A DNA stretch of 64,000 nucleotides from contig NC_088647.1 in assembly GCF_964019385.1 (NCBI RefSeq), forward strand, positions 1,069,585 to 1,133,584, given 5' to 3'. Both the position numbers and the translations under genes were made by a program. The notes below the pieces were generated by a model. That model was not told where the DNA came from, searched no databases, and worked only from the letters and a program-made list of their open reading frames with translations. Positions within the stretch are counted from its first letter, which is position 1; the number at the start of each line of letters is the position of its first letter. Source of the DNA: Sycon ciliatum. Its lineage: Eukaryota; Porifera; Calcarea; Leucosolenida; Sycettidae. Shown one piece after another: positions 249-63,850 of this stretch.

Positions 249-12655
<12,407 letters not shown>

Positions 12656-19635: not shown

Positions 19636-20373
19636 GCTTGTGGCTCAATGTAGCTGAACCATCGGACCTTATTTGTCAGCTTGGATCACGTGATCCATCC
19701 AGCTGCCGCGTGCGGCAAACAGCCCAAATAGCGCTAACTCTGGCCTGCGAGCGTTTGCTGCGACTAGCGCGCTAGCGCTCGTGACATACACAAACGCGCT
19801 AGCCAGAATGCTTTGACTTTGATGGCTTTCAGCTTCTATTTTTTGAAAAGTAGCGCGCTCAGACCAGCTCGCTCACTCTTTTCCTCTTCCATTTTTTAGG
19901 GCAATTGTTTTGTTTGATAGACGAAGCTTAGGGTCTCTTTGGGTTTGCAACCCTTACCCTCCTGGAAAAAATCATAGTTGTGCTAGACTGCGACACTTCA
20001 GACCAGGTACTATTAGAGCCGCTAATGGACGACGAGCTATTTTCCGCTATCCGGAGCTCAAGCATTTGAGCCGCTAAATGGACGAGACTCCTGAGGTAAA
20101 GGATGCAGAGAATGAGGAGAGAACACTCGTATGGAGCAGGGAGTAGGTAGTGTACTACTTCCTGGTATGGAGCACTGAGAAGCGGTAAGTCTTAGGGCAA
20201 TTCTTAGCCAGTAATTACTTTCTCGCCATAATTATGTTCTCGTTTTTCGTGTCTTCTGTAATGCCAGTACACTAGCAGTACGACTACACTGTAGGCGAGA
20301 GTCCATAAGCCAGAGTGTGCAGCTCTCCATCTATGCAGCATAAACAAATAAATGACAAATTTCCTTTGCCTAA

Positions 20374-20756
20374 GGGCTGGGTTCCACTGCCGCTCCGCCG
20401 CACATCATCCACGGCATGAAACGTCATCATTACGAGCTGGTCCAGCGAGGCCGCGGCTCATCACCAGCTTTCGCTTCGCTGCTTGATACAAAAAAATGCA
20501 AGCCGCGGTCACGGCTTGCATTGTTTCCCGCACTTAATTGTTTTATTCGGGGGAATTTTAATTCGTTGCACAGGCCAGAATACGAGGATTTTTTTGGATT
20601 TCACGCGCGCGCAGGCAGGCTAAATGTCATAAAAAAAACGTCGAGCACGATCGCGGTACCGTGAATGGCGAGTGTCACTGGAACCGCGCCGCTCTGCTGC
20701 ATGCAGCCAAGTACCGTGGAGCAGCGGAGCTGCGGAGCCGCAGTGGAACCCGGCCC
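20374..20756. mobile_element. PIF/Harbinger-like MITE in the left arm
   Basis: 383 bp. Ends are GGGCTGGGTTCCACTGCCGC and GCCGCAGTGGAACCCGGCCC, flanked by TAA (20371-20373, 20757-20759). The 3-bp TWA duplication suggests PIF/Harbinger (inference). The same element is in the right arm (62731-63114), so it was present before the palindrome formed. Confidence 0.65.
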
Positions 20757-20961
20757 TAACCAAACTTATAGCAATTTGAAAATGTTTGACAATTTTTCAT
20801 AAAAAACTTGACAACATTGTTCTTCTGTAGAGTGCCGCTGGCAACTCCATCGATGAACTCCATCAATGAGCGCAGGGATAAAGTTTAGAAACCCTTCGAG
20901 CGAGAACGTGTTTTCAAAAAGGAAGCACAAATATGCCGCGTAACTTCCCCTCTAGTACTGT

Positions 20962-21129
20962 ATGGCTCCATCAAAGCCACTCGCTGACTACTTACCAGTA
21001 AAATGGGGTTGGACGGTTGTCAGATTAGCTGACATGTTTTCTGCCAACACAACCATAAGCAGTTGTCAACTCTCAAGACTAAAAGAGCTTGCGAAGAAAG
21101 TGAGAAACCTTGGCTATGAAAGCACATGA
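20962..21129 (+). other. 55-codon open frame conserved in both arms
   Basis: Starts MAPSKPLADYLPVKW and ends NLGYEST. The right-arm copy keeps the frame with one visible residue change (G to D). Function unknown; conservation may simply reflect the young age of the duplication. Confidence 0.3.
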
Positions 21130-22116
21130 AGCGTCAGAACATAATCGAGCAAACTTGGACCTAGATTACCAGTGTCTGCTCCAGAGCCGGGTCAGTGGCC
21201 CTGTTTGTGAGTACTTGGACCTTTTGGAAAAAGAACACTGGGTTACCTGCGACCTGGTCGGAAGTCCTGTCGAGTACTATACTTTTTTATACCGTTCGAG
21301 GGTATACCGCCACTGACAGGCTGCATACGCGTGCAGATGCGTGCGGCCAGAGTGCCCAGTGCGAGTACGTTCATACATGTACATGTACAATCATGTACAT
21401 CAGGAAGTCGAAAGTAAGTTTACGACTCCCTGACACACAGTAGCCGCACTTGAACGCATCTGGCTCTGGCCCAGTGTTGCAGGAATTGTGCCAGGTAGAC
21501 GTGTACCCGGTTTGTGTTAAATCTTAGAGCAGGTACTGCATACCCTATCATATCTGTGTACATGGGTAGACAGAGTCAGTGTTGTTGCGTCCCACTCAGC
21601 CGCGTGACCCTTCTGGTTCATTTCGGCACCAGCACTCTTTGCGTATGCAGAGTTGAGTAGAGTGCAAGTTCGGACCACAAGTACACTGCAGCGGCTAGTA
21701 GCAAACCTAACCTGTGCCGTGATGCCCGGCACGTGTGTGCATCTACTTCATCCCTGAGTAACACACCTGGTATATTGTGCACAATAGGGCACAGTAAATA
21801 ATCAGCATGCATCGCAGTTTTCTGCAACATATTCCTGAAGTCACTTTACACCTCAGAAGAATTGCGTCGCTGACTGGAATTCGATACCGGTTTAGTTTCT
21901 CTCTGGGTCATTATCAATCATAGAAAACCCGTCATACAATAGGTTCCAGCTAAAGTACCGTATCACCATGGTAATTACCTGGAAATTCGGTGTGTTTTCT
22001 ACGTTTTTGTTTAACAAGCAGCAATGTGCAACAGAAATTACCATGGTGATAGAGTAGATGACCGTGTGAAGCGGTGTGTGATGCAGCAAAGGTGAGCCTG
22101 TTACTGCGAGTCTATG

Positions 22117-29103: not shown

Positions 29104-29349
29104 ATGTGGGCTTTGCGCAGCAAAGCCTAGTTAGCCCATGCACACGCATGCTGGTGGTGGAGTGCTGCGAGTGCGTGTCATGTGACCACCTCGTGATTAA
29201 GCTGTGTGCGCCGTGTATGGCCTGGCAAAATTTTATGGACAATCGTGGATCCAGCGTCTAATTATTTGGAGACGTGTTTTGCTGAGCTGTCTTTGTGCGA
29301 AGGAGCATTCTTTGCAGTTGCAGTTTCTGTGTGAAGTCAAAGTTTTTTC
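29104..29349 (+). repeat. Ngaro repeat A1
   Basis: Starts ATGTGGGCTTTGCGCAGC, ends AAAGTTTTTTC; the same as 34165-34410. Confidence 0.9.
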
Positions 29350-29395
29350 TTCCTTCCGAGGTTTCCCCTTTTCTCCGTTACTTGCGGAGATTAAT

Positions 29396-30601
29396 ATGAG
29401 CACCCGACGTGTCGCGACCCGCAGCATGGCTGTGCGAGCTCCTCCTGCTGCTGCAGCACCCCCTGCTCCCCCGACCCGCAGCATGGCGGCTCGAGCTTCT
29501 CCTGCTGCTGCAGCACCCCCTGCTCCCCCGGCAACGCCGGCTCCGGCGCCTGGGTTTTCTCCTGGCCAAATGGCAACCCTCCAGGCCTTGATCGCCACAT
29601 CTGTCCAGGCGGCTGTTAGAGCCGTCGCCCCTGCAGCCTCGGGTCAGGCGGAGTCGACACGCCGTCCGTCCCGCCCGGCTGCCCCTGCCAACACTGCCGA
29701 GCCTCGGGTGCAGGTGGAGGAGTCGTTTCCTACAGGTACGGGTGTGTGTAGTAGTAGTTCCACACGTGTGCCTACTAGTGCTAGCCTCCCTACCCCTGTG
29801 GCTGCGTCGACTGTCGTCGACGGGCTGTCTCCCCCTATACCTAGTGGTGTGACTATCCATAGCTCTCGTGTGCCTACTCCTAGTCCTAGTGTGAATAACT
29901 CTAGCAGTCTCCCGTACAATGATTTTGTGTGTAACCCTAGTGCTGTCAATGTCGGGTCCCGTAATGGGGTGACTGACCACGTGCCCCGTAGTACGTACGA
30001 CAAGGTGCTGCGCGGGGAATATGTGGAGCTTGCGTTGTTCCTCACCCCCCTCGCGGACGAGCCAGCCGCAAAGCGAGTCCGGGTGTCGGAGGATAGTGGC
30101 CAGCTAGTGCTCTCCCCGTCCCTGCCATCCCGCCGCAAGCTGGAGAGCCTGCCCGTTTGGCTGGAGGCATGGTCGGTGTATTGCGCACTGATCTGCGACA
30201 CCCAACCCGCAAGGGCGGTGTCGCTGATTACATATCAGCTTCGTATCATTCAAGCGGCGAAACGATATAGGTGGGCGGCGGTGTGCCAATATGACGAGGA
30301 GTTCCGTCGGAAACTCGCCCACAGCCCTGGCATGCAGTGGGATGTGGTGGATCAGGACCTGTACACCCGCTGTTTCACAGGCCAGGCGCTCGTTCTCTGC
30401 CCGCTATGCAAGCGTCTCGGACACACCGCCAACACCTGCACCTCCCGGGACCAGCGCAAGCCCGGCACGACCCAGCCAGCGTGCGAGCTGCACAACAAGG
30501 GCCGGTGCAATTTTCGGAACTGTAGGTATCGCCACGTCTGCAGCTCCTGCGGAGCTCCCGATCACGTCGCCACCCGGTGCGGGGCTCGCGCCGGCCAGTG
30601 A
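29396..30601 (+). CDS. Ngaro Gag-like protein with zinc fingers
   Basis: 402 codons from ATG 29396 (upstream frame open from 29204). Ala/Pro-rich N-terminus with a duplicated RSMAxRAxPAAAAPPAPP block, then a Ser/Thr-rich middle. A C-terminal zinc region has CPLCKRLGHTANTC, a CxxxxxxxCxxxxCxxxxC array (HNKGRCNFRNCRYRHVC) and CGAPDHVATRC. Such knuckles bind nucleic acid in retroelement Gag proteins. It overlaps the next ORF, which is in another frame. Confidence 0.85.
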   Translation: MSTRRVATRSMAVRAPPAAAAPPAPPTRSMAARASPAAAAPPAPPATPAPAPGFSPGQMATLQALIATSVQAAVRAVAPAASGQAESTRRPSRPAAPANTAEPRVQVEESFPTGTGVCSSSSTRVPTSASLPTPVAASTVVDGLSPPIPSGVTIHSSRVPTPSPSVNNSSSLPYNDFVCNPSAVNVGSRNGVTDHVPRSTYDKVLRGEYVELALFLTPLADEPAAKRVRVSEDSGQLVLSPSLPSRRKLESLPVWLEAWSVYCALICDTQPARAVSLITYQLRIIQAAKRYRWAAVCQYDEEFRRKLAHSPGMQWDVVDQDLYTRCFTGQALVLCPLCKRLGHTANTCTSRDQRKPGTTQPACELHNKGRCNFRNCRYRHVCSSCGAPDHVATRCGARAGQ

Positions 30602-32312
30602 GGCCCCGGCTAGTCCGTATCCTGCTTTATCCACGCACACACCTCACACTCCTGTTGTTTTTAATGCATTCGTGTCTGATTCGCACGCACGTACACACCC
30701 TGCCTTACCCACGCACACCCCTCACACTCCAATTGTTCTGCAGGCATTGGAAATTGAATTGCTCGCACACCCTGATCCTGCATTTGTTGCCCATTTGTTA
30801 GATGGTTTACGCTATGGTTTTAGAGTTGGCTATGACGGTCCCCGTCATTCTTTGCTTTGTGAGAATCTTGCTTCGGCATTTGTTTCCCCTGAGATTGTTT
30901 CAGCTTACCTCGCTAAAGAGGTTCAGCTTGGTCATACGGCCGGTCCGTTTCGGCAACCCCCGTTCGCCAACTTCCGCTCGGCTGGCGTCGGTGTCATTCC
31001 GAAGAAGTCAGGTGGCCACCGCCTGATAGTGCATCTGTCCGCGCCGGCCGGCGCTAGTATCAACGATGGCATTCCCGAAGACCTGTACAGCCTCGAGTAC
31101 ATTACTGTGGACGTCGTCGTGGGGCACGTGATCCGTCACGGCAAGGGCGCGCTAATGTACAAGGTGGATATCCGCCACGCGTTCCGAAACATCCCCGTCC
31201 ACCCACACGATTGGCCCCTCCTAGGCATGGTGTGGGACGGGCAGTATTACTTCGACAAGGTCCTGCCATTCGGGCTGCGGTCTTCCCCGGCTCTCTTCAA
31301 CCTGCTGGCAGATGCGCTATGTTGGATACTCCGGCACAACTATTCCCTGGCCGACCTCGAGCATTATCTGGACGACTACATCGGCGTCGCCCCGCCTAGC
31401 CCCTCTCCATCGTCATCTACCGCAGCCATTCAACAAGCGACGCTGCTAACCGTGTTTGAGAACTTGGGCGTTCCAGTGGCTACCGGCCAGGACAAGGTCG
31501 TCCCTCCAACGACTGTGATGACTGTGCTGGGGATCGAAGTTGACAGTGTGGAGCAGGCGACTCGGCTCCCCCAGGACAAGTTGTCCGCCCTCCACGCAGC
31601 TCTGGCAACTTGGCTCCAGCGCACCGACTGCTCCAAGCGTGAGCTCCTGTCCCTCATAGGCACGCTGTCCTTCGCCGCCAAGGTGGTCCCCCCGGGCCGC
31701 ACGTTCATTCGGCGCCTCATTGACCTCAGCACAACGGCTTCCTCCATGTCTGCCCGGATCCCGATCGATGAGGAAGCGCGCCTCGACATCGTCTGGTGGC
31801 ATCGCTTTGCAGCCGACTGGAATGGGAAGTCCTTCTTCCACGACCAGGCCTGGTCCCGTTCTCCTGACCTCCAGTTGTTCACAGACGCCTCCGGCGAGGG
31901 CTACGGGGGCTACTTCCAGGGCGACTGGTTTTTTGGGAAGTGGCCGGAGGAGTTTGAATCTCCTCAGCTAAGCGTTATTATGGTTAGAGAAATGGTTCCC
32001 ATTGCCCTAGCTTGCTGCATTTGGGGTCCGTGCTGGGCAGGGAAGAAGCTGCTGTTTCATTGCGATAACGAGGCGGTAGTTAGAGCTTGGAAGAATGGTT
32101 CATGTAGGAACAAGCAGGCCATGGCGTTGATCCGTTTTATGTTAGCTGTTGCCGCTAGGCACAATTTCATATTGTATATCCGCCATATTGCTGGTACTAA
32201 TAACGGCATTGCTGATGCTCTTTCTCGCTTGCAGCTGACCCGCTTCCGTCAACTGGCGCCAACGGCGGCTGCTTCGCCAGTGCCATGCCCCTGCCCGACC
32301 GTGCTGCTCTAG
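30600..32312 (+). CDS. Ngaro reverse transcriptase-RNase H
   Basis: The frame is open from 30291 and probably entered by frameshift or re-initiation near the end of Gag. RT motifs: VIPKKSGGHRLIVHLS, LMYKVDIRHAFRNIPVHP, VLPFGLRSSPALFN, and YLDDYIGV at 31364-31387. An RT-RH joint (LSLIGTLSFAAKVVPPGRTF) is followed by RNase H with LFTDASGEGYGG, LFHCDNEAVV and HIAGTNNGIADALSR. The arrangement is that of DIRS/Ngaro RTs. It overlaps the recombinase ORF by 28 bp. Confidence 0.9.
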   Translation, partial: EAPASPYPALSTHTPHTPVVFNAFVSDSHARTHPALPTHTPHTPIVLQALEIELLAHPDPAFVAHLLDGLRYGFRVGYDGPRHSLLCENLASAFVSPEIVSAYLAKEVQLGHTAGPFRQPPFANFRSAGVGVIPKKSGGHRLIVHLSAPAGASINDGIPEDLYSLEYITVDVVVGHVIRHGKGALMYKVDIRHAFRNIPVHPHDWPLLGMVWDGQYYFDKVLPFGLRSSPALFNLLADALCWILRHNYSLADLEHYLDDYIGVAPPSPSPSSSTAAIQQATLLTVFENLGVPVATGQDKVVPPTTVMTVLGIEVDSVEQATRLPQDKLSALHAALATWLQRTDCSKRELLSLIGTLSFAAKVVPPGRTFIRRLIDLSTTASSMSARIPIDEEARLDIVWWHRFAADWNGKSFFHDQAWSRSPDLQLFTDASGEGYGGYFQGDWFFGKWPEEFESPQLSVIMVREMVPIALACCIWGPCWAGKKLLFHCDNEAVVRAWKNGSCRNKQAMALIRFMLAVAARHNFILYIRHIAGTNNGIADALSRLQLTRFRQLAPTAAASPVPCPCPTVLL

Positions 32313-33214
32313 GCCTCGAGGCTGATGCCCTTGTAGCAGGTTCAGTGTCAGAACGCTCAGCGAGAACGTTCTCCACTGGCATTGATGCCTTCAATGATTA
32401 TTGCGTTAAACATATTGTCAATCCCCTTGCACCCTCTAAGGAGGATATCGTATTATTTGCTACCGAGCTGTCTCGTACGAGGTGTGTGGCGACTGTGCGT
32501 GTGTATTTGTCAGCGGTACGGTATCATTTGCTGTGCAAGCGTGTTCCGGTGACTTGTATGCAGTCCGTCCGTCTTTCTGCAGTTCTCAAGGGCCTTGAGA
32601 GGAGGCAGGGTCCCGCAACCACGACGCGGAGAGGTCTCACTGGGCAAGATCTGGCCGACTTACAGCATTTCCTACTCCGGTCCAACTACAGCGAGTCGGA
32701 CCGCGCAATGATCTGGGCCAGTGTCTTGACAGCGTTCCACGGCCTTCTGCGGGCGAGTGAGTTCCTGGCACCGCATGCAACAAGAGTCGATAGCACGCGC
32801 ACGCTAACCTGGCAGCAGATCAGTGTCCAGGCATCATCGGCAGTCGTCCGCTTGCGGGTGACGAAGACAGCCCAGCTGGGTGACGGCGGCCAAGTACAGC
32901 TGCGCGAGACACGCGACGACTTCTGCCCTGTGCGTGCCCTGACCGCCTATCTGGACCTTGCGGGTCAGAGAGAGGCGACGGAGCCAGTGTTTGTGTTTGC
33001 GTCTGGCCGGTTTCTGACCAGGGAGGAACTGACCAAGATTCTGCGGCTAGCCCTGAGGACGAACGAGGTCAGCTCTCACTCCATGCGTATCGGTGGCGCT
33101 TCACTCATGGCTCAGCGTGGGGCAAGTGAATGGCAAGTAAAGCGGGCGGGCCGCTGGAGAAGCTCTGCATGCGAACGTTATGTGCGGCAGGCAGCCGGGA
33201 TGCCTAGCTTGTAA
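32285..33214 (+). CDS. Ngaro tyrosine recombinase
   Basis: 309 codons starting MPLPDRAALGLEADALVAGS. Core motifs: first Arg in FHGLLRASEFL (about 155), Lys-containing LRVTKTAQ, His-x-x-Arg in SSHSMRIGGASLMAQ (about 264-267), GRWRSSACERYVRQ with the nucleophile Tyr near 299. All four catalytic positions are present, so it looks able to integrate a circular cDNA. Gene order and repeats support Ngaro rather than Crypton. Confidence 0.9.
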   Translation: MPLPDRAALGLEADALVAGSVSERSARTFSTGIDAFNDYCVKHIVNPLAPSKEDIVLFATELSRTRCVATVRVYLSAVRYHLLCKRVPVTCMQSVRLSAVLKGLERRQGPATTTRRGLTGQDLADLQHFLLRSNYSESDRAMIWASVLTAFHGLLRASEFLAPHATRVDSTRTLTWQQISVQASSAVVRLRVTKTAQLGDGGQVQLRETRDDFCPVRALTAYLDLAGQREATEPVFVFASGRFLTREELTKILRLALRTNEVSSHSMRIGGASLMAQRGASEWQVKRAGRWRSSACERYVRQAAGMPSL

Positions 33215-33376: not shown

Positions 33377-34164
33377 GGGGCAAACGGGCCTCCTATTATG
33401 TCTGTATGTTGTGACGCCTGATGCCAGGCAGTCGTGTGAGCCCTCGGTGGGCGATTGGCTGGCCTCGGTGGCCGTTTGTGTGCCCTCGGCGGGCAAGATG
33501 ATATCGGCCCACGGTGGGCAGTTTGCTTGCCTCGGTGGCAATTTGCGCACCCTCGATGGGTTGTCTGCTGGTTTAGCCCTCGACGGGCGGTTTGCTGGCC
33601 GCGGCGGCCATTTGAGCGCCCTCGGTGGGCAGTATACTAGTTTACCCCTCGGCGGGCGGTTTGCTGGCCTCGGCGGCCATGTGTGCGCCCTCGGTGGGCA
33701 GTATGCTAGTTTAGCCCTCGGCGGGCGGTTTGCTGGCCTCGGCGGCCATTTGCGCGCCCTCGGTGGGCAGTAGGCTAGTTTAGCCATTTGGGCGCCCTCG
33801 GTGGGCAGTATGCTAGTTTAGCCCGCGGCGGGCCGCGGTGGCCATTTGGGCGCCCTTGGCGGGCGGATGCTAGTTTCAGGCATGCATCTTTACTCAATCA
33901 ATTATTATCAAAGAGCATATTCTTGAATATTTGAATTGTCCAAAAGAAATCATGGCAACCCCCAACCCAATGTGTCTATTGTACGTTTGTGCACGCCATA
34001 GTGAGCGGTACGTTGTGCGGGTGTCTGCGTGTCAGAGCATGGGTACACCAGTGGCGTGTGCGTGCATGTGTGCGCTTGCGTCTGGCTGCATGAGTGCACG
34101 AGTGCCCAAGCTGGGCGTGCGGGTGCACTTGAGGTGCTTGCATGTTGACGGGTGCAGGGGTTAA
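33377..34164 (+). repeat. Ngaro repeat B1 with internal minisatellite
   Basis: Starts GGGGCAAACGGGCC, ends GCAGGGGTTAA; the same as B2. 33430-33875 is a tandem array of about 60-70 bp units built from CCTCGGTGGGCAGT and CTGGCCTCGGCGGCCA. Confidence 0.88.
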
Positions 34165-34468: not shown

Positions 34469-35257
34469 GGGGCAAACGGGCCTCCTATTATGTCTGTATG
34501 TTGTGACGCCTGATGCCAGGCAGTCGTGTGAGCCCTCGGTGGGCGATTGGCTGGCCTCGGTGGCCGTTTGTGTGCCCTCGGCGGGCAAGATGATATCGGC
34601 CCACGGTGGGCAGTTTGCTTGCCTCGGTGGCAATTTGCGCACCCTCGATGGGTTGTCTGCTGGTTTAGCCCTCGACGGGCGGTTTGCTGGCCGCGGCGGC
34701 CATTTGAGCGCCCTCGGTGGGCAGTATACTAGTTTACCCCTCGGCGGGCGGTTTGCTGGCCTCGGCGGCCATGTGTGCGCCCTCGGTGGGCAGTATGCTA
34801 GTTTAGCCCTCGGCGGGCGGTTTGCTGGCCTCGGCGGCCATTTGCGCGCCCTCGGTGGGCAGTAGGCTAGTTTAGCCATTTGGGCGCCCTCGGTGGGCAG
34901 TATGCTAGTTTAGCCCGCGGCGGGCCGCGGTGGCCATTTGGGCGCCCTTGGCGGGCGGATGCTAGTTTCAGGCATGCATCTTTACTCAATCAATTATTAT
35001 CAAAGAGCATATTCTTGAATATTTGAATTGTCCAAAAGAAATCATGGCAACCCCCAACCCAATGTGTCTATTGTACGTTTGTGCACGCCATAGTGAGCGG
35101 TACGTTGTGCGGGTGTCTGCGTGTCAGAGCATGGGTACACCAGTGGCGTGTGCGTGCATGTGTGCGCTTGCGTCTGGCTGCATGAGTGCACGAGTGCCCA
35201 AGCTGGGCGTGCGGGTGCACTTGAGGTGCTTGCATGTTGACGGGTGCAGGGGTTAAA
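34469..35257 (+). repeat. Ngaro repeat B2
   Basis: Copy of B1 including the minisatellite; marks the right end of the element at GGGGTTAAA. Confidence 0.88.
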
Positions 35258-36094: not shown

Positions 36095-36397
36095 AATTAA
36101 ATGCTTGAAAGTTGAAACTTCGTTTTTCAGATGAATCAGACTGCAAATCAATAGCATAGCAAAGACCATAGCTATCCCAGGAACACTTGAGTAGTGCCCT
36201 CTTTTACCTTTTTCTATGTTGTCCTCTTCAGTTTGAGCAGGTATGGATGTTTCCTAGTGCCTTCTAGAATTTCTAGGTATATCATTGGTCTTGTTCGGAT
36301 CGTCCATTACGTTTGCAGCTGTTCAAACTTGTATTGTTGTTTATTATTTTATTGATTTATTTATTCTACTTGCCTTTCCTATCTTCTTGTGTTTTAG

Positions 36398-36499
36398 CAT
36401 TAGGCGATTTGATCGCAGGACGAGAGAGGAGCTGATGGACGATCTCTCCAATGTTCCACTTGGTTCGGAGCGGCGCCGAGTGCTGACGTTGGGACTTGG
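36398..36499 (+). CDS. Candidate spliced exon inside the inverted arm
   Basis: A pyrimidine-rich tract and acceptor cttgtgttttag precede 36398; donor ggtaagga follows 36499. 102 bp in one open frame reading IRRFDRRTREELMDDLSNVP and LGSERRRVLTLGL. The right arm keeps acceptor, donor and frame, with Asn-to-Ser and Arg-to-Gln changes. Charged, probably helical; no family recognised. It may belong to an unknown gene of the giant transposon or be a captured exon. Confidence 0.35.
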
Positions 36500-36531
36500 G
36501 TAAGGATGAGTGTTCCCTCATGTTTACAAGT

Positions 36532-36690
36532 TATCCGTTTTGTCCAACACTAACGGTTATATGCAGAATACTGTTGAGTCAAAAATGTGCAACAATCAGC
36601 ACAAAAACTGACTGATGAGATCATGACATTCAACGACCTGATGCTTACCTGCATCACGTTTATACCCGTTAGTGTTGGAAAAAACGGATA
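36532..36690. mobile_element. Foldback MITE, left-arm copy
   Basis: Ends TATCCGTTTTGTCCAACACT and AGTGTTGGAAAAAACGGATA. Present at the mirror place 60885-61044. Its centre (GCACAAAAACTGACTGATGA ... CATTCAACGACCTGA) resembles the foldback at 42403-42895. Confidence 0.6.
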
Positions 36691-36863
36691 CCTCGTAAAC
36701 TTATGGTCCTCTTTTTTAATTTTAATCCTTGGCTCTCCATCCGAGTTCCCTCATGTGTTGCTATTATTTTTATTTACTTATTTTTTTGCCCAGGGTCTAC
36801 ATTCTACATTTATTTTACTTAGACTAGGGTTAGCTGTCCGTTTACCAGTACTCATCCACACAT

Positions 36864-38495
36864 ATGTGCACATAGGGTCTACACAGAACTCTATCAGTAG
36901 ATATTTTTGTATAGGAGGTTGTCTATCCTCCGGGATAGCACTATATACTCCCATTCTGTGTGTTCTCTGGTAGCTATGTTCCTTAGAGACCATATGACTG
37001 TGCCAGTGTGGTGACCGAGGTGAGGTGTGTCTGCACTGGCATCGTCAACTTGCCTACTGCTACGTGCTCCCCAGTGCTCCATCTGTGTCCTGTACTTTAT
37101 TTGGGGGGGGGGGGGGGAGGGGCAATACCGGTACTTCAGGTGCAGGGGGCAAGGGGGATGGGGTGGGGGACATCATGCCCCCAATGAACCTCTCCAGGCG
37201 TTGTTCTGGAGTAGACTAACCATAGGCGGAGTGTACACATGCAGCACATAGTTTGGGAATTAGAACGCGATCAGACTCGGGCATATTCAAAGGCAGTCTA
37301 TTGTGATAGTAGTCCTGGACGGATCTCACTATGATGACATAGGTCGTGCCCAGCATCACAATGCCCAACATTATAAATGACTGTTTTTTTTCCTGAGGGG
37401 CTAGATGAACATGTGGCTAGACTGCCGATGGCAACCAACAGGCTCAAGGCTGTGTTGAGACTTCGTGTTTGCGACCCGAGTCAATTGTTTACTCACCATG
37501 ACTAGGCATCGCATCGGGCATCGTATGACCATTTTATATGTCACTGTTCTTAGTCGCACCGGGGGCGTATGCCCGTTTTCAGGAGACTTATCAAAACACA
37601 TAAGCCCTGTGCCCTGAAGGTTAGGCCTATTGTTAGTCTGAATAGTCCTGGCTACTATCCCACTAAGTTCATTGACTTTCTACTGAACCTGTATGTACGT
37701 GAGGAAAGTACTGTTCTGGCCTGAACTACGGATTTCATCAACTTGGTAGAAGGTTTGCCTGTGCGGGACGATCATTTATTTTTAGTATAGATGTGACCAG
37801 CCTTTACACCAGCATCCCCAACGAGCTCGGTCACGTGGCATTGTCGTGGTATATCACACACAGGTATACAAGGTGGATGCCCCCGGCCCTTCGTACACGG
37901 TTAACAACAGCAGTGACTTCCTTGATGTCAGTCATTCGGAAGACTAACGGGTTCGTGTAAGATAACGATTTGTTTCCGCAGATCCAAGGGACTGCCATGG
38001 GTTCGCCTGCAGCAGTGGTCTATGCCGACATTGTTATGCTGTATTTGGAGAATCGGTACATTTTGCCGATCTTAGAGGGGGATGGTTTAGAGGTTCAGGT
38101 TTATAGACGCTTTATCAGTGACATTTTTGTTTCATTGCATGGTTGCGAAGGTCAAGTTCAGCGCGCTTTAGACAGGATTAATAAGTGTTCGGCCCTCGAG
38201 TTTGCGCATGAACTGGCACATGATGGCATTGATTTCCTGGACACCACAGTTTTCCGTAGTAAGGGATACATGGCGGTGAAGCCTCATTTCAAGGTCACCA
38301 ATCGTTTCCTGTATCTGCTTGCCGGTAGTAACCAGCCCCGTAGTATGGGTAAAGGTGTGATCACTGGGGAGTTGATCCGTATCCATCGGTCTTCGACCCT
38401 TGACCACCACTACGAAGCTGCTGCCGAGCAGGCGAAGCAGACTTTCCGGGCCCGTGTATACAAGAGCTCCATCTTTCATCTTTCAGACCGTACAC
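36864..38495. repeat. Inner left arm, second part
   Basis: Inverted copy of 54446-56070. It includes a poly-G run near 37104 and the Penelope-like RT remnant. The match ends at the CGTACAC word. Confidence 0.85.
37560..38495 (+). pseudogene. Penelope-like reverse transcriptase remnant, left-arm copy
   Basis: Fingers: LIKTHKPCALKVRPIV then LNSPGYYP. Palm: SLYTSIPNELG, then from 37970 QIQGTAMGSPAAVVYADIVM, degenerate box D FISDIF in place of a YxDD-type motif, FLDTTVFRSKGYMAVKPHF and STLDHHYEAAA. GTAMG followed by YA, and FLDxxV, are typical of Penelope-like RTs. Several stops and frameshifts before 37970. No GIY-YIG endonuclease is seen. Confidence 0.65.
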
Positions 38496-54445: not shown

Positions 54446-55380
54446 GTGTACGGGTCTGAAAGATGAAAGATGGAGCGCTTGTATACACGGGCCCGGAAAG
54501 CCTGCTTCGGCCGCTCGGCAGCAGCTTCGTAGTGGTGGTCAAGGGTCGAAGACCGACGGATACGGATCAACTCCCCAGTGAACACACCTTTGCCCATACT
54601 ACAGGGGTGGTTACTACCGACAAGCAGATACAGGAAACGATTGGTGAACTTGAAATGAGGCTTCACCGCCATGTATCCCTTACTACGGAAAACTGTGGTG
54701 TCCAGGAAATCAATGCCATCATGTGCCAGTTCATGAGAAAACTTGAGGGCCGAACACTTATTAATCCTATCTAAAGTGCGCTGAGCTTGACCTTCGCAAC
54801 CATGCAATGATAAAGCGTCTATAAACCTGAACCTCTAAACCCTCCCCCTCTAAGATCGGCAAAACGTACTGCTTCTCCAAATACAGCATAACAATGTCGG
54901 CATAGACCACTGCTGCAGGCGAACCCATGGCAGTCCCTGGCCTTGGATCTGCCGAAACACATCGTTACCATACACAAACTCATTTTTCTTCCGAATGACT
55001 GACATCAAGGAAGTCACTGCTTGTAATAACCATGTACGAAGGGCGAGGGGCATCCACCTTGTACATCTGTGTGTGATATACCACGACAACCGAGCTCGTT
55101 GGGGATGTTGGTGTAGTAAAGGCTGGTCACATCTATGCTCAATTATAAATGATCGTCCCGCACAGGCAAACCTTCTACCAAGTTGATGAAATCCGCAGTT
55201 GAGGTCAGAACAGTACTTTCCTCACATACATACGGGTTCAGTAGAAAGTCAGTGAACTCAGCGGGATAGTAGCCAGGACTATTTAGATTAACAATAGGCC
55301 TAACCTTCAGGACCCAGGGCTTATGTGTTTTGAGAAGTCTCCTGAAAACGGGCATGCGCCCCCGGTGCGACTAAGAACAG
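54446..55380 (-). pseudogene. Penelope-like reverse transcriptase remnant, right-arm copy
   Basis: Minus strand. 55355-55143 reads PVFRRLLKTHKPWVLKVRPI, then NSPGYYPAEF, better kept than the left copy. 54807 down reads FLDTTVFRSKGYMAVKPHFK and SNHPCSMGKGVFTGEL. The GTAMG box is frameshifted (QIQGQGLPWV). Both copies are inactive and diverged independently. Confidence 0.65.
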
Positions 55381-56070
55381 TGACATAATATATTATATTA
55401 GTGGGCATACGATGCTCAATGCGATGCCTAGTCATGGTGAGTAAACAATTGACTCGGGTCGCTCACACGAAGTCTCAACACAGCCTTGAGCCTGTTGGTT
55501 GCCATCGGCAGTCTAGCCGCATGCTCATCTAGCCCCTCAGGCAAAAAAAACAGTCATTTATAATGTTTGGCATTGTGATGCTGGGCACGACCTATATCAT
55601 CATAGTGAGATCAGTCCAGGACTACTATCACAATAGACTGCCTTTGAATATGCCTGAGTCCGATTGCGTTCTAGCTCCCAAACTATGTGCTGCATGTGTA
55701 CACTCCGCCTATGGTTAGTCTACTCCAGAACAACGCCTGGAGAGGTTCATTGGGGGCATGATGTCCCCCCACCCCATTCCCCCCTTGCCCCCTGCACCTG
55801 AAGTACCGGTATTGCCCCCCCCCCCCCTCCCCAAACAAATTACAGGACACAGATGGAGCACTGGGGAGCACGTAGCAGTAGGCAAAGTTGACGATGCCAG
55901 TGCAGACACTCCTGATCTCGGTCACCACACTGGCACCGTATAGTCTCCAAGGGACATAGCTACCAGAGAACACACAGAATGGGAGTATATAGTGCTATCT
56001 CGGTGGATAGACAACCTCCTATACACAAAATATCTACTGATAGAGTTCTGTGTAGATCCTATGTGCACAT
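54446..56070. repeat. Inner right arm, second part
   Basis: Inverted copy of 36864-38495, including a poly-C run mirrored by the left poly-G run. Ends at the insertion site of the RAG1-like transposon. Confidence 0.85.
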
Positions 56071-56074
56071 ATGT
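56071..56074. repeat. TSD ATGT of the RAG1-like transposon, left copy
   Basis: Repeated at 59824-59827. The left arm has a single ACAT (36860-36863) in the same context, an intact empty site. Confidence 0.85.
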
Positions 56075-56563
56075 CACTGCTGTTATCATAGACCTGATCC
56101 TGGCCACAGTGTCCTGGGTACGAGCGTACGCACTCTCCCTGGAAATTTGAATTTTTGATTTTCACAGAAACAATTTTTCGCTGACACGGGTCACATTCTT
56201 GCGTTTCTAGGACTGTTCTACGCTTGAAAGAAGAACAAGAACCACATACAGTGAGTGACTACAACATGATAGACCACACCAGAAAATTTGAAGACGATCG
56301 GTGAAGGTTGAGCTGAGTTCTGACACGATCTGTTGAAACAACTTCATGTCGCTCGTCATCACGATTGAGTAGCATCTCCGTTCTTGATAGACCCTTCCCT
56401 TCGTGTTCCAGAAGTTATTTTTCATGTTTGGTGAGTTTCTCGTCGGACCTCAGGTCTTTCTCGATCGATTGCCACCTCACTCGATCCGAACGAAACCTAA
56501 ACTACCGAAACGAAGCCTGCGCTTTTTTGGCTGTTTTTCCGTTTTTACGTGTAGATCTATAGA

Positions 56564-59500
56564 ATGGATCGTCATGTTCGATTACTGGGTCTTTTGTGTC
56601 GCGTCGGCGGTGTTCCGCTAGCCAAGCAGAAGCAGAAAACTACGTATTCTGTTTCTGAGAATGCCGAGGGTATTCTGAAATGTTTTGAAGTGGATATCAC
56701 ACAGGACCAACCACACCTGCACCCTACACAGATTTGCAGTACATGCTACAAGGCTGTGAATTATGCCTTGAGCAAGTCAGAGTATACACGTTGTGGTGGA
56801 GGATGTGCCGAGCCAAGTAGCTGGCTTCCCCATGATCATGTGCATGAGGATGGTACCACAGTATGCAGGGTATGCACTACCATTGAGCAAGCCGCCAAAG
56901 GTGGTCGTCCGGCTAAGAAAAAGAGAACAACAAAGCCACCTGCCCGTACAGCGGCAGCCGTTACATCCACGTGCACGTCTACGCACACAGGCACCCACCA
57001 GACACGGTCTCAGACAACAGGGATCAACTCGGAGAGTCAGAGTACATGTTTACAGAAATTGTATGATGTAGCAACACCAAGCTATGCAGCCAACAAGAGT
57101 CTGAGCACAGATAGATTCATCGGATGCCAAGCTATATTACAATGTACACTATGCAGCAATGTGCTAGAGAGAGCCGTGGAAGCAGACTGCTGTAGAAAGA
57201 GCTTTTGTTCCGCATGTGTGTGGGAGTGGCTGGCTTCTGATACAACATGCCCTGGTTGCAATGCACAGCTCTCCGTGTCGAATCTCAGCACGCCCAATCC
57301 GATCTTGCAGGGCTGCCTTGCCGAACTAGTGGTCAGGTGCGACAATTATGCTGGAGCGCTGATTGGTTGCCCGGCAACAGTGCCACTTGCTCAACTTGCC
57401 AGCCATGTGCAGAACTGCGAGAACACTGGTAAGCAAACAGTCGGCCCGTCCACCGCTGTCAGCGATGTGCTCACTGCTTCGCCGTCAAAGCTCCGAGGCA
57501 ACGTGTCAGACAGTCTCACCAGCCATCTAGTGAAGAGCAAGGCGGATGCTGGCGTACTTCAGTTGAGGAGCCGAGGTCCATCGCAGACATGGCAACGAAC
57601 AACAGTTGCAGCTGTACCGTCCAACAATGCATCAGCCAGGACTGTGCGGCGACGCTGTGCTGAGCTTGAAAAAACCAGCCAGCGCGTAGCAGGGAGTTTC
57701 GCCGGTGCAGTTGTCCAGCAAGCTGCCACATTAAGCCGGCTAAAGGAGGAAGAGCGTAAAGCTGTTCTTATTGAGGCTGGTGTCATGCCAAAAACACCTG
57801 GGACAGGCACAACGCTAGCATTGAAAGCCAACCTACACATGCCATGGAATCAGCTCCGGAAATTGAAAGTATGGCTGAAGGACTTTGGCCTGTATCTCGA
57901 GTCAGAGCGGGTAATGCGGAAACAGCTCGACGATCTTTTGCCCTTTACCATTGTGGCAGAAAAGACACCGTTCGTAGCAGCATCTGGAAGCGTCGAGCTG
58001 CATGCAATGGTGACAATTCCTGATCTTGTTGGGACTGTCCATCACTACTTGAACCAGCTGGAGGCAACAGATCAGCTTCACTGGCATGATGGCGCAATCC
58101 CAAAAGATGAGGTATGGGTCAAAATCGGCGGCGATCACGGTGGCGAGTCCTTCAAGATGTCGTTCCAGATCGTTAATGTACAGCAGTGCAATGCTCTACG
58201 GCACATCATTCCGTTTATCATCTTTGCTGCTAAAGATACGGCAGCAAATCTGTGCACGGCCCTGCAGCCATTCGTCAGTGAGGTCGAGAAGCTGGCCAGT
58301 ACAACGTGGCGTAACAGGTCAGTGAGGGTCTTGTTGTTCGGAGATTACGAACTGCAGACCACGTTGTACGGCTTGTCAGGGTCGAGTGGAACCCACCCTT
58401 GCCTGCACTGCACTGCTATGCGGAAAGAGATACAGCTACCTGGGTGTAGCGGAGCACCGCGCAGTCTCGATTTGTTGTGCACAGACAACGCTGCCTTTGT
58501 TGCAGCTGGTGCAAAATTAGCGGACGCTAAGAAGCACAACAACTGCATCCGGCCACCGATCTTGCCTGTGTCCCTGGACAATGTGATTATTCCCGTTCTT
58601 CATTTGGATCTGGGAATATTCGCTTGGATATTCGATGCCATGACCAAGGACTGCCAGATGCTGGACGTTGCCCTTGCATCATCCAGTACAGCAGTTGGCA
58701 CCGATAGCCGAGCGTACACTGTCACAACAGAGATGCACGAGAGCCTTCGCCAGAAGCAATTGGATCTTCAGAACGAGCGCACAGCAGCTGACAGTCTACA
58801 GGAGCAGCTCGAATGGCTTGCGATCCATGCTTCCAACCTGACTGCCCCACAGCTTGAAGCGGCCACAGCAGGAATTCAGGCGAAGCAGCACACCACCACA
58901 AGCGCCATCAGCTCTCTCCAGGATGAAGTGAAGGCTCTGTCTGACCAGCTCCAGAGCCGCAGTATTCTGCATGGTCCATGTGAGGCCTCACTGGACAGAA
59001 CTCTGCAGGAGTACAATATTTGTCGCCAGCGGTACCATGGTGGTGCCTTTATCGGCAATCATATTCACCATGCCCTGCAGCCACCAGTGGTTGCTGCTTT
59101 GTCAAATGCGCCTCTGATTGTCGCCTCCACCACAGAGAGAGCAGCGCCTCCATCCGTTCTCGACCAGGCCAGAGTAGTGGCAAAGCGGTATAATGACCTG
59201 CTCACTCAGTTCTCTCACTGCCGCCGAAGATACTCGTCCTGCGCAACAATGTCAGCAGAAGATATTCAGCTGTTCGAGAGTGATTGCGCTACCTTCCTCT
59301 CCACAGCACGGCAAGAGGTCGTCACCAGAAAACTTGGCCATGTAACGCCTAAGCTTCATTTGCTGGAATGCCATCTGCCTGACGCCTTGGCAAGATTCAG
59401 AGTTGGCCTGGGCCTACTAGCTGAGCAGGGAGGTGAAAGTATTCACGCCGAGTTCAACGACCTTCGCAAGCGACACGGAGGCGTCGTGAACGATGTCGAC

Positions 59501-59599
59501 AAGCTACGGACTGTCTTGAAGGCTCACCTTTCCTCCACGCTTCCTCAGCACGCCAAACTTGTCCCTCAAAGGGCCAAGCGCAAGCGGAAGGCCAATTGA
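56564..59599 (+). CDS. RAG1-like RING-finger transposase
   Basis: 1011 codons, intact. N-terminal zinc region as in RAG1: CRVGG (12-16), HPTQICSTC (53-61), CRVC (101-104), then a basic GGRPAKKKR patch. RING-type finger C194-C197, C209/C210, C215-C218, C229-C232, followed by a Cys/His segment ending HVQNC. Core: D524 in KIGGDHGGESFKMSF, D594 in LLFGDYELQTTLYGL, C613-x2-C616, LHLDLG (D682), a helical Gln/Glu-rich stretch (about 725-840), H932-x4-H937 and E958 in EQGGESIHAEF. These match the RAG1 order D600, D708, C727/C730, H937/H942, E962, and D594 to C613 is 19 residues as in D708 to C727. It likely cuts and joins DNA at the CAC ends. Odd: Cys of the first knuckle is Gly15, and the RING His position holds Lys. 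Confidence 0.88.
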   Translation: MDRHVRLLGLLCRVGGVPLAKQKQKTTYSVSENAEGILKCFEVDITQDQPHLHPTQICSTCYKAVNYALSKSEYTRCGGGCAEPSSWLPHDHVHEDGTTVCRVCTTIEQAAKGGRPAKKKRTTKPPARTAAAVTSTCTSTHTGTHQTRSQTTGINSESQSTCLQKLYDVATPSYAANKSLSTDRFIGCQAILQCTLCSNVLERAVEADCCRKSFCSACVWEWLASDTTCPGCNAQLSVSNLSTPNPILQGCLAELVVRCDNYAGALIGCPATVPLAQLASHVQNCENTGKQTVGPSTAVSDVLTASPSKLRGNVSDSLTSHLVKSKADAGVLQLRSRGPSQTWQRTTVAAVPSNNASARTVRRRCAELEKTSQRVAGSFAGAVVQQAATLSRLKEEERKAVLIEAGVMPKTPGTGTTLALKANLHMPWNQLRKLKVWLKDFGLYLESERVMRKQLDDLLPFTIVAEKTPFVAASGSVELHAMVTIPDLVGTVHHYLNQLEATDQLHWHDGAIPKDEVWVKIGGDHGGESFKMSFQIVNVQQCNALRHIIPFIIFAAKDTAANLCTALQPFVSEVEKLASTTWRNRSVRVLLFGDYELQTTLYGLSGSSGTHPCLHCTAMRKEIQLPGCSGAPRSLDLLCTDNAAFVAAGAKLADAKKHNNCIRPPILPVSLDNVIIPVLHLDLGIFAWIFDAMTKDCQMLDVALASSSTAVGTDSRAYTVTTEMHESLRQKQLDLQNERTAADSLQEQLEWLAIHASNLTAPQLEAATAGIQAKQHTTTSAISSLQDEVKALSDQLQSRSILHGPCEASLDRTLQEYNICRQRYHGGAFIGNHIHHALQPPVVAALSNAPLIVASTTERAAPPSVLDQARVVAKRYNDLLTQFSHCRRRYSSCATMSAEDIQLFESDCATFLSTARQEVVTRKLGHVTPKLHLLECHLPDALARFRVGLGLLAEQGGESIHAEFNDLRKRHGGVVNDVDKLRTVLKAHLSSTLPQHAKLVPQRAKRKRKAN

Positions 59600-59666
59600 G
59601 GACCGTTTCAGGTAAGTTCCTTGCTCAAACGATATCCCAAACATGTTGTTTGTTAGTTGATTTTCA

Positions 59667-59672
59667 AATAAA
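59667..59672 (+). terminator. PolyA signal of the RAG1-like transposase gene
   Basis: AATAAA 68 bp after the stop at 59599. Confidence 0.6.
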
Positions 59673-59908
59673 TTTAATTTTTGTGGGTCCGCTTTTGGTG
59701 CACACATGATTGTTTGCGTACGCGTGCACACGCGCCATGTGTATTACTATGGAAACTCGAAGAGTTTTTGCACGTGACGTGATTGCCGCCATCTTACTGA
59801 GTGGCCAGGCGCAAACAGCAGTGATGTGTGGATGAGTACTGGTAAACGGACAGCTAACCCTAGTCTAAGTAAAATAAAGGTAGAATGTAGACCCTGGGCA
59901 AAAAAATA

Positions 59909-60719
59909 CTTGGTCCGCGTCAGCGATATTGTCGCTTATCTTTCGACAATTTGAACTTAGACTTTGGACATGAACGCGTGCACTTGACATGATAAAACTT
60001 GGTACGATGGACGGTAAGGTATAGAATGACAACTAGCTGCGAGGAATTTATTGTCCAAGGAAGGGTTCCTACTTTTTTCGGTCCTCCTCGTCACTGCTCT
60101 CGGCGCTGGCGACAAATATTTTTGCTCGGGATCGACTCTCTTGCTTTTGCAAGCTCATCTTTCTTCCTCTCCGCTGCCTGGCTATTTTCTAAAGAGAAGT
60201 CGATCGTGACGGTCCCCTTCTCTATAGGACTTCGCGTGGGCAGCACGACAGCCTGTGTGGTTCAAATCAGACGCCGTTCTTTGCAAGATTTTATTTTGAA
60301 CGACGACGACGCGTACAGTACGAGTCGTACTTGCAAATCTCCCCAACGCGCTGGATACTCCGAGCGTTGAGCTGGAGGTAAGGAAGCTGCGATCTCACCT
60401 TGATGAGCGATCCCTGAGGTGAGCGACCTCGGCCGTTCAGCAAAATGGAGCTGATTCCGAGTAGCCGATTACTTTCTTGTGGCTTGCGCTGCTCTTGCCT
60501 GCACAGCGTAACAAGATAATCTATTTTGATGCGGCGCTGTATCAATCAGAATCACCCACCTGTCGCTCTCGAAATCCACTCGAACTCTAGCTAGACCTTT
60601 CAGGTACTAGCAAACTAACTTGCTAACCAAAATTGGGATGAAATGGGCTGCCAAGTAAGGATTGGCGACATATAAACAAAGCTCAAAGATAAGCGACAAT
60701 ATCGCTGACGCGGACCAAG
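59909..60719. mobile_element. TA-flanked MITE in the right arm
   Basis: 811 bp; ends CTTGGTCCGCGTCAGCGATA and the exact complement, TA on both sides (59907-59908, 60720-60721). The left arm has the uninterrupted site. No transposase seen. Confidence 0.8.
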
Positions 60720-60884
60720 TAAGTAAATAAAAATATTGACTAGTTTGAGGGAAAGACACAAACGGGAAAAGTCTGAAGAAAAAATTGACTGTCACCAAAA
60801 AAATAATAATAGCTACACACAGGAGGGAACTCGGATGGAGAGCCAAGGATTAAAATTGAAAAAGAGGACCATCAGTTTACGAGT

Positions 60885-61044
60885 TATCCGTTTTGTCCAA
60901 CACTAACGGATATAAACGTGATGCAGCTAAGCATCAGGTCGTTGAATGTCATGATCTCATCAGTCAGTTTTTGTGCTAATTGTTGCACATTTTTGACTCA
61001 GCAGTATTCTGCATATAACCGTTAGTGTTGGACAAAACGGATAA
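60885..61044. mobile_element. Foldback MITE, right-arm copy
   Basis: Mirror of 36532-36690. Confidence 0.6.
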
Positions 61045-61357
61045 CTTGTAAACATGAGGGAACACTCATCCTTACCCAAGTCCCAACGTCAGCACTCGGC
61101 GCTGCTCCGAACCAAGAGGGACACTGGAGAGATCGTCCATCAGCTCCTCTCTTGTCCTGCGATCAAATCGCCTAATGCTAAACACAAGAAGATAGGAAAG
61201 GCAAGTAGAATAAATAAATCAATAAAATATTAAACAACAAAACAAGTTTGAACAGCTGCAAACGTAATGGACGATTCGAACAAGACCAATGATATACCTA
61301 GCAATAAGTGTGCAGAGTGTGCAGCCCAAGGATAATCATCCCACGGCAAAGTTTATT

Positions 61358-63850
61358 GTTTAGGGCATAGACTCGCAGTAACAGGCTCACCTTTGCTGCA
61401 TCTCACACCGCTTCACACGGTAATCTACTGTATCACCATGGTAATTTCTGTTGCACATTGCTGCTTGTTTAACCCTTAACAAAAGGCAGAAAACACACCG
61501 AATTTCCAGGAATTACCATGGTGATACGGTACTTTAGCTTGAACCTATTGTATGACGGGTTTTCTATGATTGATAATGACCCAGAGAGAAACTAAACCGG
61601 TATCGAATTCCAGTCAGCGACGCAATTCTTCTGAGGTGTAAAGTGACTTCAGGAATATGTTGCAGAAAACTGCGATGCATGCTGATTATTTACTGTGCCC
61701 TATTGTGCACAATATACCAGGTGTGTTACTCAGGGATGAAGTAGATGCACACACGTGCCGGGCATCACGGCACAGGTTAGGTTTGCTACTAGCCGCTGCA
61801 GTGTACTTGTGGTCCGAACTTGCACTCTACTCAACTCTGCATACGCAAAGAGTGCTGGTGCCGAAATGAACCAGAAGGGTCACGCGGCTGAGTGGGACGC
61901 AACAACACTGACTCTGTCTACCCATGTACACAGATATGATAGGGTATGCAGTACCTGCTCTAAGATTTAACACAAACCGGGTACACGTCTACCTGGCACA
62001 ATTCCTGCAACACTGGGCCAGAGCCAGATGCGTTCAAGTGCGGCTACTGTGTGTCAGGGAGTCGTAAACTTACTTTCGACTTCCTGATGTACATGATTGT
62101 ACATGTACATGTATGAACGTACTCGCACTGGGCACTCTGGCCGCACGCATCTGCACGCGTATGCAGCCTGTCAGTGGCGGTATACCCTCGAACGGTATAA
62201 AAAAGTATAGTACTCGACAGGACTTCCGACCGGGTCACAGGTAACCCAGTGTTCTTTTTCCAAAAGGTCCAAGTACTCACAAACAGGGCCACTGACCCGG
62301 CTCTGGAGCAGACACTGGTAATCTAGGTCCAAGTTTGCTCGATTATGTTCTGACGCTTCATGTGCTTTCATAGCCAAGGTTTCTCACTTTCTTCGCAAGC
62401 TCTTTTAGTCTTGAGAGTTGACAACTGCTTATGGTTGTGTTGGCAGAAAACATGTCAGCTAATCTGACAACCGTCCAATCCCATTTTACTGGTAAGTAGT
62501 CAGCGAGTGGCTTTGATGGGGCCATACAGTACTAGAGGGGGAGTTACGCGGCATATTTGTGCTTCCTTTTTGAAAACACGTTCTCGCTCGAAGGGTTTCT
62601 AAACTTTATCCCTGCGCTCATTGATGGAGTTCATCGATGGAGTTGCCAGCGGCACTCTACAGAAGAACAATGTTGTCAAGTTTTTTATGAAAAATTGTCA
62701 AACATTTTCAAATTGCTATAAGTTTGGTTAGGGCCGGGTTCCACTGCGGCTCCGCAGCTCCGCTGCTCCACGGTACTTGGCTGCATGCAGCAGAGCGGCG
62801 CGGTTCCAGTGACACTCGCCATTCACGGTACCGCGATCGTGCTCGACGTTTTTTTTATGACATTTAGCCTGCCTGCGCGCGCGTGAAATCCAAAAAAAAT
62901 CCTCGTGTTCTGGCCTGTGCCACGAATTAAAATTCCCCCGAATAAAACAATTAAGTGCGGGAAACAATGCAAGCCGTGACCGCGGCTTGCATTTTTTTGT
63001 ATCAAGCAGCGAAGCGAAAGCTGGTGATGAGCCGCGGCCTCGCTGGACCAGCTCGTAATGATGACGTTTCATGCCGTGGATGATGTGCGGCGGAGCGGCA
63101 GTGGAACCCAGCCCTTAGGCAAAGGAAATTTGTCATTAATTTGTTTATGCTGCATAGATGGAGAGCTGCACACTCTGGTTCATGGACTCTCGCCTACAGT
63201 GTAGTCGTACTGCTAGTGTACTGGCATTACAGAAGACACGAAAAACGAGAACATAATTATGGCGAGAAAGTAATTACTGGCTAAGAATTGCCCTAAGACT
63301 TACCGCTTCTCAGTGCTCCATACCAGGAAGTAGTACAATACCTACTCCCTGCTCCATACGAGTGTTTTCTCCTCATTCTCTGCATCCTTTACCCCAGGAG
63401 TCTCGTCCATTTAGCGGCTCAAATGCTTGAGCTCCGGATAGCGGAAAATAGCTCGTCGTCCATTAGCGGCTCTAATAGTACCTGGTCTGAAGTGTCGCAG
63501 TCTAGCAACTATGATTTTTTCCAGGAGGGTAAGGGTTGCAAACCCAAAGAGACCCTAAGCTTCGTCTATCAAACAAAACAATTGCCCTAAAAAATGGAAG
63601 AGGAAAAGAGTGAGCGAGCTGGTCTGAGCGCGCTACTTTTCAAAAAATAGAAGCTGAAAGCCATCAAAGTCAAAGCATTCTGGCTAGCGCGTTTGTGTAT
63701 GTCACGAGCGCTAGCGCGCTTGTCGCAGCAAACGCTCGCAGGCCAGAGTTAGCGCTATTTGGGCTGTTTGCCGCACGCGGCAGCTGGATGGATCACGTGA
63801 TCCAAGCTGACGAATAAGGTCCGATGGTTCAGCTACATTGAGCCACAAGC
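61358..63850. repeat. Right outer arm of the giant transposon
   Basis: 2493 bp, inverted copy of 19636-22124. It ends GAGCCACAAGC, followed by the TSD at 63851-63859. The PIF/Harbinger-like MITE is at 62731-63114. Confidence 0.9.

Follow-up and report, generated by a model that had tools for sequence, protein, structure and literature searches.

An intact Chapaev-type transposon of the calcareous sponge Sycon ciliatum encodes a transposase with a RAG1-like domain order

The DNA analysed here, referred to as the window, is a stretch of 64,000 nucleotides from the calcareous sponge Sycon ciliatum (contig NC_088647.1, positions 1,069,585 to 1,133,584 of the forward strand), and it contains, at positions 56075–59823 of the plus strand, a whole transposon of 3,749 bp coding for a single large transposase. 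Its limits are given by its ends, by a target-site duplication, by an empty site, and by 12 genome copies with identical 14 terminal bases. The ends (CACTGCTGTT on the left, AACAGCAGTG on the right) carry terminal inverted repeats (TIRs) at 56075–56084 (plus strand) and 59814–59823 (where CACTGCTGTT is read on the minus strand), which match at 10 of 10 positions, with divergence between the ends beyond them, and both are flanked by the duplicated target ATGT (56071–56074 and 59824–59827). Flanks of 1,075 (left) and 1,377 (right) bases were searched against the window. On the minus strand, within the opposite arm of an inverted duplication, the left flank stops at 36860 and the right flank, matched over its first 85 bases, starts at 36863, and the joined alignment overlaps by exactly 4 bases, a single ATGT (36860–36863) that represents the empty target site; the remainder of the right flank is broken by a second insertion and picks up again past it. 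The flank search and the ATGT overlap bear out the original prediction made from the letters alone, which had described an intact element with CAC...GTG ends, a 4-bp duplication, certain limits, and a preserved empty site. Within the element, no open reading frame (ORF) longer than 93 amino acids (aa) was found except the one at 56564–59599, hence no RAG2-like partner gene; about 0.7 kb lies outside this ORF, with a possible polyadenylation signal (AATAAA, plus strand) at 59667–59672.

The transposase ORF, on the plus strand as are all the features within it, encodes 1,011 aa plus a stop, and its AlphaFold2 model reached a mean predicted local distance difference test score (pLDDT) of 85.8. 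Residues 1–110 (56564–56893) form the Chapa domain, or RAG1 N-terminal zinc region, in which C58, C61, W87, C101, and C104 are at least 90% conserved in A4, a set of 30 sequences made of the window protein, 4 closer relatives, and 25 members of a distant set found with the relative P0046. A RING-like part with flanking zinc fingers follows (residues 177–289; 57092–57430). The usual His of the RING is replaced there (K212, with C209-C210), so that this part may or may not act as a ubiquitin ligase. Residues 346–410 (57599–57793) tentatively make up a region similar to the nonamer-binding domain (NBD), as seen in some structural alignments, which begin at model residue 346–348, one of them at RAG1 residue 391, with a root-mean-square deviation of about 8; in hhalign, the match of these residues to RAG1 is collinear and weak. 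The RAG1/Transib-type catalytic core occupies residues 411–1005 (57794–59578) and includes a coiled-coil stretch (residues 711–802; 58694–58969; helices 716–754 and 761–797 in the model) that shows structural matches to unrelated coiled coils and, as we read the model, is probably an insertion relative to RAG1. As had been predicted, a single ORF unites the RAG1-type N-terminal part with a RING-like part and a DDE core.

All the expected catalytic and zinc-ligand positions could be located in the core. The first catalytic Asp, D524 (58133–58135), closes one of the core strands of the model, is invariant in A1 (a profile of 21 sequences), A3, and A4, and would correspond to RAG1 D600, judging by the strand end and the surrounding letters; hhalign leaves a gap there. 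It is followed by the second catalytic Asp, D594 (58343–58345; RAG1 D708 position), the C(2)C motif C613 and C616 (58400–58411; RAG1 C727 and C730), the LH motif L679-H680 (58598–58603; invariant in A3 and A4), the H(4)H motif H932 and H937 (59357–59374; RAG1 H937 and H942), and the catalytic Glu, E958 (59435–59437; RAG1 E962). In A1, the residues D594, C613, C616, H680, H932, H937, and E958 reach 90% conservation or more, and in A4 D594, C613, C616, and H680 are invariant, with H932, H937, and E958 at 90% or more. Alignment to mouse RAG1 with hhalign paired C613/C616 with C727/C730 in the three runs and D594 with D708 in two of them (A3 and A4; shifted in A1), and the phmmer and hmmsearch alignments paired H932, H937, and E958 with H937, H942, and E962, in C-terminal stretches that by themselves score next to nothing (1.6 and 4.5 bits). 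The RAG1 residues presumably have the roles assigned to them here, and the letters at those RAG1 numbers were checked.

A Pfam search of the window protein detected DUF1280 at residues 417–578 (7.6e-18; 65.4 bits for a cut-off of 25), a domain also present in 21/21 and 30/30 of the family members scanned, and RAG1_imp_bd above its cut-off (3.8e-7). Profile A1 matched RAG1 of the PDB over residues 101–376, from the N-terminal zinc region through the RING (1.2e-22), and A4 did so over residues 99–385 (6.8e-18). In the structural search, on which the original prediction had been staked, the core of the model matched the RAG1/Transib-type RNase H fold; these matches are the best 50 at most, and families beyond them may match as well. 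Taken by profile and by fold, the N-terminus, the RING part, and the core all have RAG1 as their best match. In addition, two Chapaevs that are about 25% identical both keep the RAG1 order, the zinc region by sequence and then the RING and the core by fold.

Searches for protein relatives scored 7,990 and 7,997 candidates, and the relatives given here are a minimum. The closest named one among the candidates listed was a Sycon ciliatum protein (P0020; 43–44% identical), and five further relatives bear scpid/scgid names, which we take to be Sycon identifiers. For the distant relatives from the P0046 search, a host was named in 6 of 59 cases, all of them gastropods (Littorina, Nucella, and Plakobranchus). 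A contig search for relatives gave 44 pattern matches, none of them confirmed.

The genome (538 Mb in 313 contigs) was then searched with the protein; 45 of 2,181 first-look candidates were scored, which gave at least 48 matches. Twelve of them span residues 1–1011 at 98–100% identity, 11 with the frame open, and correspond to full-length copies of 3,720–3,761 bp, 98.10–99.97% identical, with 14 bases in common at each end. The first 286 bases of the element were found at 23 genome places, 15 of them at 95% identity or more over at least 284 bases. The window copy (L001) and L004 have common flanks (99.95% over 6,033 bases) and, because these are shared, count as one insertion copied together with its surroundings; the same applies to L005 and L008, which lie about 29 kb apart, without target duplication, in an apparent tandem array of units of roughly 5.4 kb. 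The 12 copies thus represent 10 distinct sites, and 8 of the 12 show the 4-bp duplication. Besides these, 16 of the other 36 matches were examined (28 loci in total), falling into four lineages, B to E (15 loci), with ends of CACGGCTGTT or CACGGATGTT type, plus a single locus (L028) that is 54% identical. The original prediction suggested a search for further copies by their ends; the genome contains these 12 full-length elements, the window copy among them, plus four lineages with the same end type, CAC(T/G)G(C/A)TGTT. Both ends were found in 26 of the 28 loci (L024 and L028 dropped), corresponding to 24 distinct flank pairs; at these 24 sites, from five lineages, a 4-bp duplication was detected at 20, one of 5 bp at 1, and none at 3. 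Near-identical copies at different sites, most of them with 4-bp duplications, show that the spread is recent.

The ratio of non-synonymous to synonymous differences (pN/pS) was calculated from pooled differences against L001 in the 11 open copies, a choice that, by leaving out the broken L012, biases towards constraint. It was 0.29 for Chapa (2 to 2 differences), 0.65 for the linker (6 to 3), 0.09 for the RING part (2 to 7), 0.24 for residues 291–410 (4 to 6), and 0.24 for the core (24 to 31). With these small counts, the RING part seems to be under at least as much constraint as the core.

Chapaev transposons were reportedly described by Kapitonov and Jurka in 2007. Passages of PMC4079192 give their hallmarks as duplications of 3–4 bp, CAC and GTG ends, and C(2)C, LH, and H(4)H motifs, and passages of PMC3985635 identify DUF1280 with Chapaev transposases, placed in one clade together with RAG1. 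The element shows all of these: CAC...GTG ends, a duplication within 3–4 bp, DUF1280, and a DDE core with C(2)C, LH, and H(4)H. The combination of Chapa, RING, and core in Chapaev was reported in 2015 by Kapitonov and Koonin, in a text (PMC4411706) that places the identification of the group in lancelet and sea anemone. Compared by description, the element resembles these Chapaevs in having the Chapa domain and then the RING, the hallmark of their RING subgroup, in one protein with the core, and also in its ends, its 4-bp duplication, its motifs, and its DUF1280, and it differs from them in its sponge host and in a RING without the usual His. We conclude, with a probability of about 0.93, that it is an autonomous cut-and-paste Chapaev transposon, in whose transposase a RAG1/Transib-type RNase H core is preceded by a Chapa zinc region and a RING.

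Several points weigh against this conclusion. The filing as Chapaev follows from hallmarks and Pfam, not from a tree, and the element is only presumed to be active in transposition. The RING models of Pfam score under their cut-offs on the window protein, its RAG1 core model PF12940 gives no match up to an E of 10, and the C-terminal 133 residues searched alone match neither PF12940 nor any other Pfam model. Among the 30 members of A4, at E ≤ 0.01, RAG1_imp_bd (Chapa) is seen in 8 and no single RING model in more than 6, which means that some Chapaevs show no complete front end by this measure. The core profile aligns to mouse RAG1 collinearly in the three hhalign runs, at E values of 0.005–0.03 and probabilities below 7%; this comparison, made against one RAG1 sequence, was rejected as proof of core homology, being too weak to stand alone. 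In A3, which includes truncated proteins, H932, H937, and E958 are below 90% conservation. Finally, 3 of the 10 distinct sites of the element's own lineage are without duplication.

As a Chapaev, the element would move through a transposase dimer binding its own CAC...GTG ends, with D524, D594, and E958 cutting these ends, which would then be inserted at a target cut staggered by 4 bp. RAG1 and Transib form hairpin intermediates, and by analogy the same may hold for the flanking ends here. Chapa and RING would probably be regulatory, dimerizing, or ubiquitin-ligase modules and not catalysts.

Since RAG1 is the best match of all parts of the protein and the ends start with CAC, the element could also be a RAGL transposon (ProtoRAG/TransibSU), in other words a true RAG1L element whose RAG2L was lost. 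This we consider highly improbable. According to passages of PMC7204232, RAGL elements almost always make 5-bp duplications, have a protostome TIR consensus CACTWMCAAACK..., and carry a RAG2L gene, whereas the Sycon family has 5 bp at just 1 of its 24 sites and 4 bp at 20, ends of a different sequence from that consensus, and, in the element, no second ORF above 93 aa in the 0.7 kb outside the transposase. PF12940, in addition, misses the window protein, and the RAG2 family has no match in the genome, a weak result since the control also matched nowhere. Transib as the family was likewise rejected, given duplications of 4 and not 5 bp and the presence of the N-terminal Chapa and RING; canonical Transib transposases have no domain besides the core according to PMC4411706, and PMC7204232 and PMC8355894 give 5-bp duplications for Transib.

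The original prediction had named N-RAG-TP as the nearest known type, and the element does share with it, as a transposon, the RAG1 N-terminal zinc region. N-RAG-TP of Aplysia, compared here by description, is presented in PMC8355894 as made entirely of RAG1 N-terminus-like sequence, whereas a full conserved DDE core is present in Sycon. This core, together with the Chapaev hallmarks, moves the element to Chapaev and makes an N-RAG-TP very unlikely; it is possible that N-RAG-TP itself is a truncated or partly described Chapaev. A domesticated host gene lying between chance repeats, to which the single long ORF and its apparent constraint (pN/pS 0.24 in the core and 0.09 in the RING part, from small counts in open copies) could point, has a practically negligible chance in view of the empty site, the target-site duplication, and the presence of 12 near-identical copies, spread over 10 distinct sites.

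In jawed vertebrates, RAG1 serves the host as a recombinase, acting together with RAG2 on recombination signal sequences. The element differs from it in sequence (16–18% identity in the structural alignments with RAG1) and in having the coiled-coil stretch 711–802.

Broken and deleted relatives were also found in the same genome. The single genome match of PF12940 (7/7 candidates scored) comes from a broken Chapaev relative, L052/L053 (C9:19280864-19282181), whose C-terminal piece reaches 27.6 bits for a cut-off of 25 and whose N-terminal piece matches RAG1_imp_bd (7.4e-13). This relative is one more connection to RAG1 at the sequence level. The possibility that the genome has a true RAG1 gene was rejected, as this sole match belongs to a broken, internally deleted Chapaev relative with a Chapa piece. 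PF12560, the RAG1-type N-terminal domain, was detected in at least 122 genome places (137 of 255 candidates scored), many of them in open frames of about 147–201 aa. The three such loci fetched, L057–L059, contain a stretch of about 2.76 kb, 98.9–99.2% identical among them, with one ORF for the Chapa piece, another for the C-terminal part, and, among the ORFs listed from 110 aa upwards, none covering the catalytic-Asp region. They carry the C-terminal part too, against a class of Chapa-only elements, and have the appearance of Chapaevs with internal deletions rather than of N-RAG-TP. By pattern, no left end was found in L057 and L058, and L059 contains an inverted pair.

The non-core N-terminus of RAG1 and its RING have no agreed origin. 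The element extends the RAG1-like layout to a calcareous sponge and bears on whether this N-terminus arose by fusion or by inheritance, with the RING/Chapa part carried by a transposon that has had no contact with adaptive immunity. This bearing, also claimed in the original prediction, is real; it had already been argued from other Chapaevs in passages of PMC4411706. The combination of Chapa, RING, and core is likewise in print, and the element group already described. What the element adds is a family, intact and recently multiplied, with its anatomy known exactly, the agreement of five lineages on a 4-bp duplication, and the apparent conservation of the RAG1 domain order in the two distant Chapaevs, which combines sequence for the front end with predicted fold for the RING and the core. 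No title on this sponge element appeared among the literature matches listed, a search with subscription papers mostly outside its scope. As a tentative idea, to which we give less than even odds, the RAG1 plan (Chapa, RING, NBD-like helices, and an RNase H core with a split zinc site) might be ancestral in the Chapaev–Transib–RAG group and already present in transposons of early animals. The RAG1 N-terminus would then never have been fused from a separate N-RAG transposon, and sponge Chapaevs would be living carriers of the plan, with the RING still serving transposition. Horizontal transfer of the transposon is a possible alternative to inheritance. An intact family with exact ends makes a bench test of the role of RING and Chapa possible, through excision, insertion, and protein turnover.

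Other features were observed in the window. Just to the right of the element, the second insertion (59909–60719) measures about 811 bp, has perfect 37-bp inverted ends including TA (TACTTGGTCCGCG...), and is flanked by a duplicated TA whose empty counterpart lies in the opposite arm (TA read by eye); it looks like a non-autonomous Tc1/mariner-type element. The inverted duplication is large and interrupted, pairing 19636–21976 with 61511–63850 and 36393–38489 with 54453–61182. Because its outer arms are complementary at 99–100% and its inner arms at 94–96%, the two parts seem to differ in age or to have been converted. Long ORFs (15017–19306, minus; 29204–33214, plus; 4544–7123, minus) resemble retroelement proteins by eye, with zinc knuckles accompanying reverse transcriptase and integrase, and reverse transcriptase beside a tyrosine-recombinase-like ORF; the ORF at 4544–7123 contains a 30-bp tandem repeat of 9.8 units. 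Finally, two 69-bp tandem arrays (33439–33785 and 34531–34877), spaced by 1,092 bases, are equal in consensus, copy number, and score.

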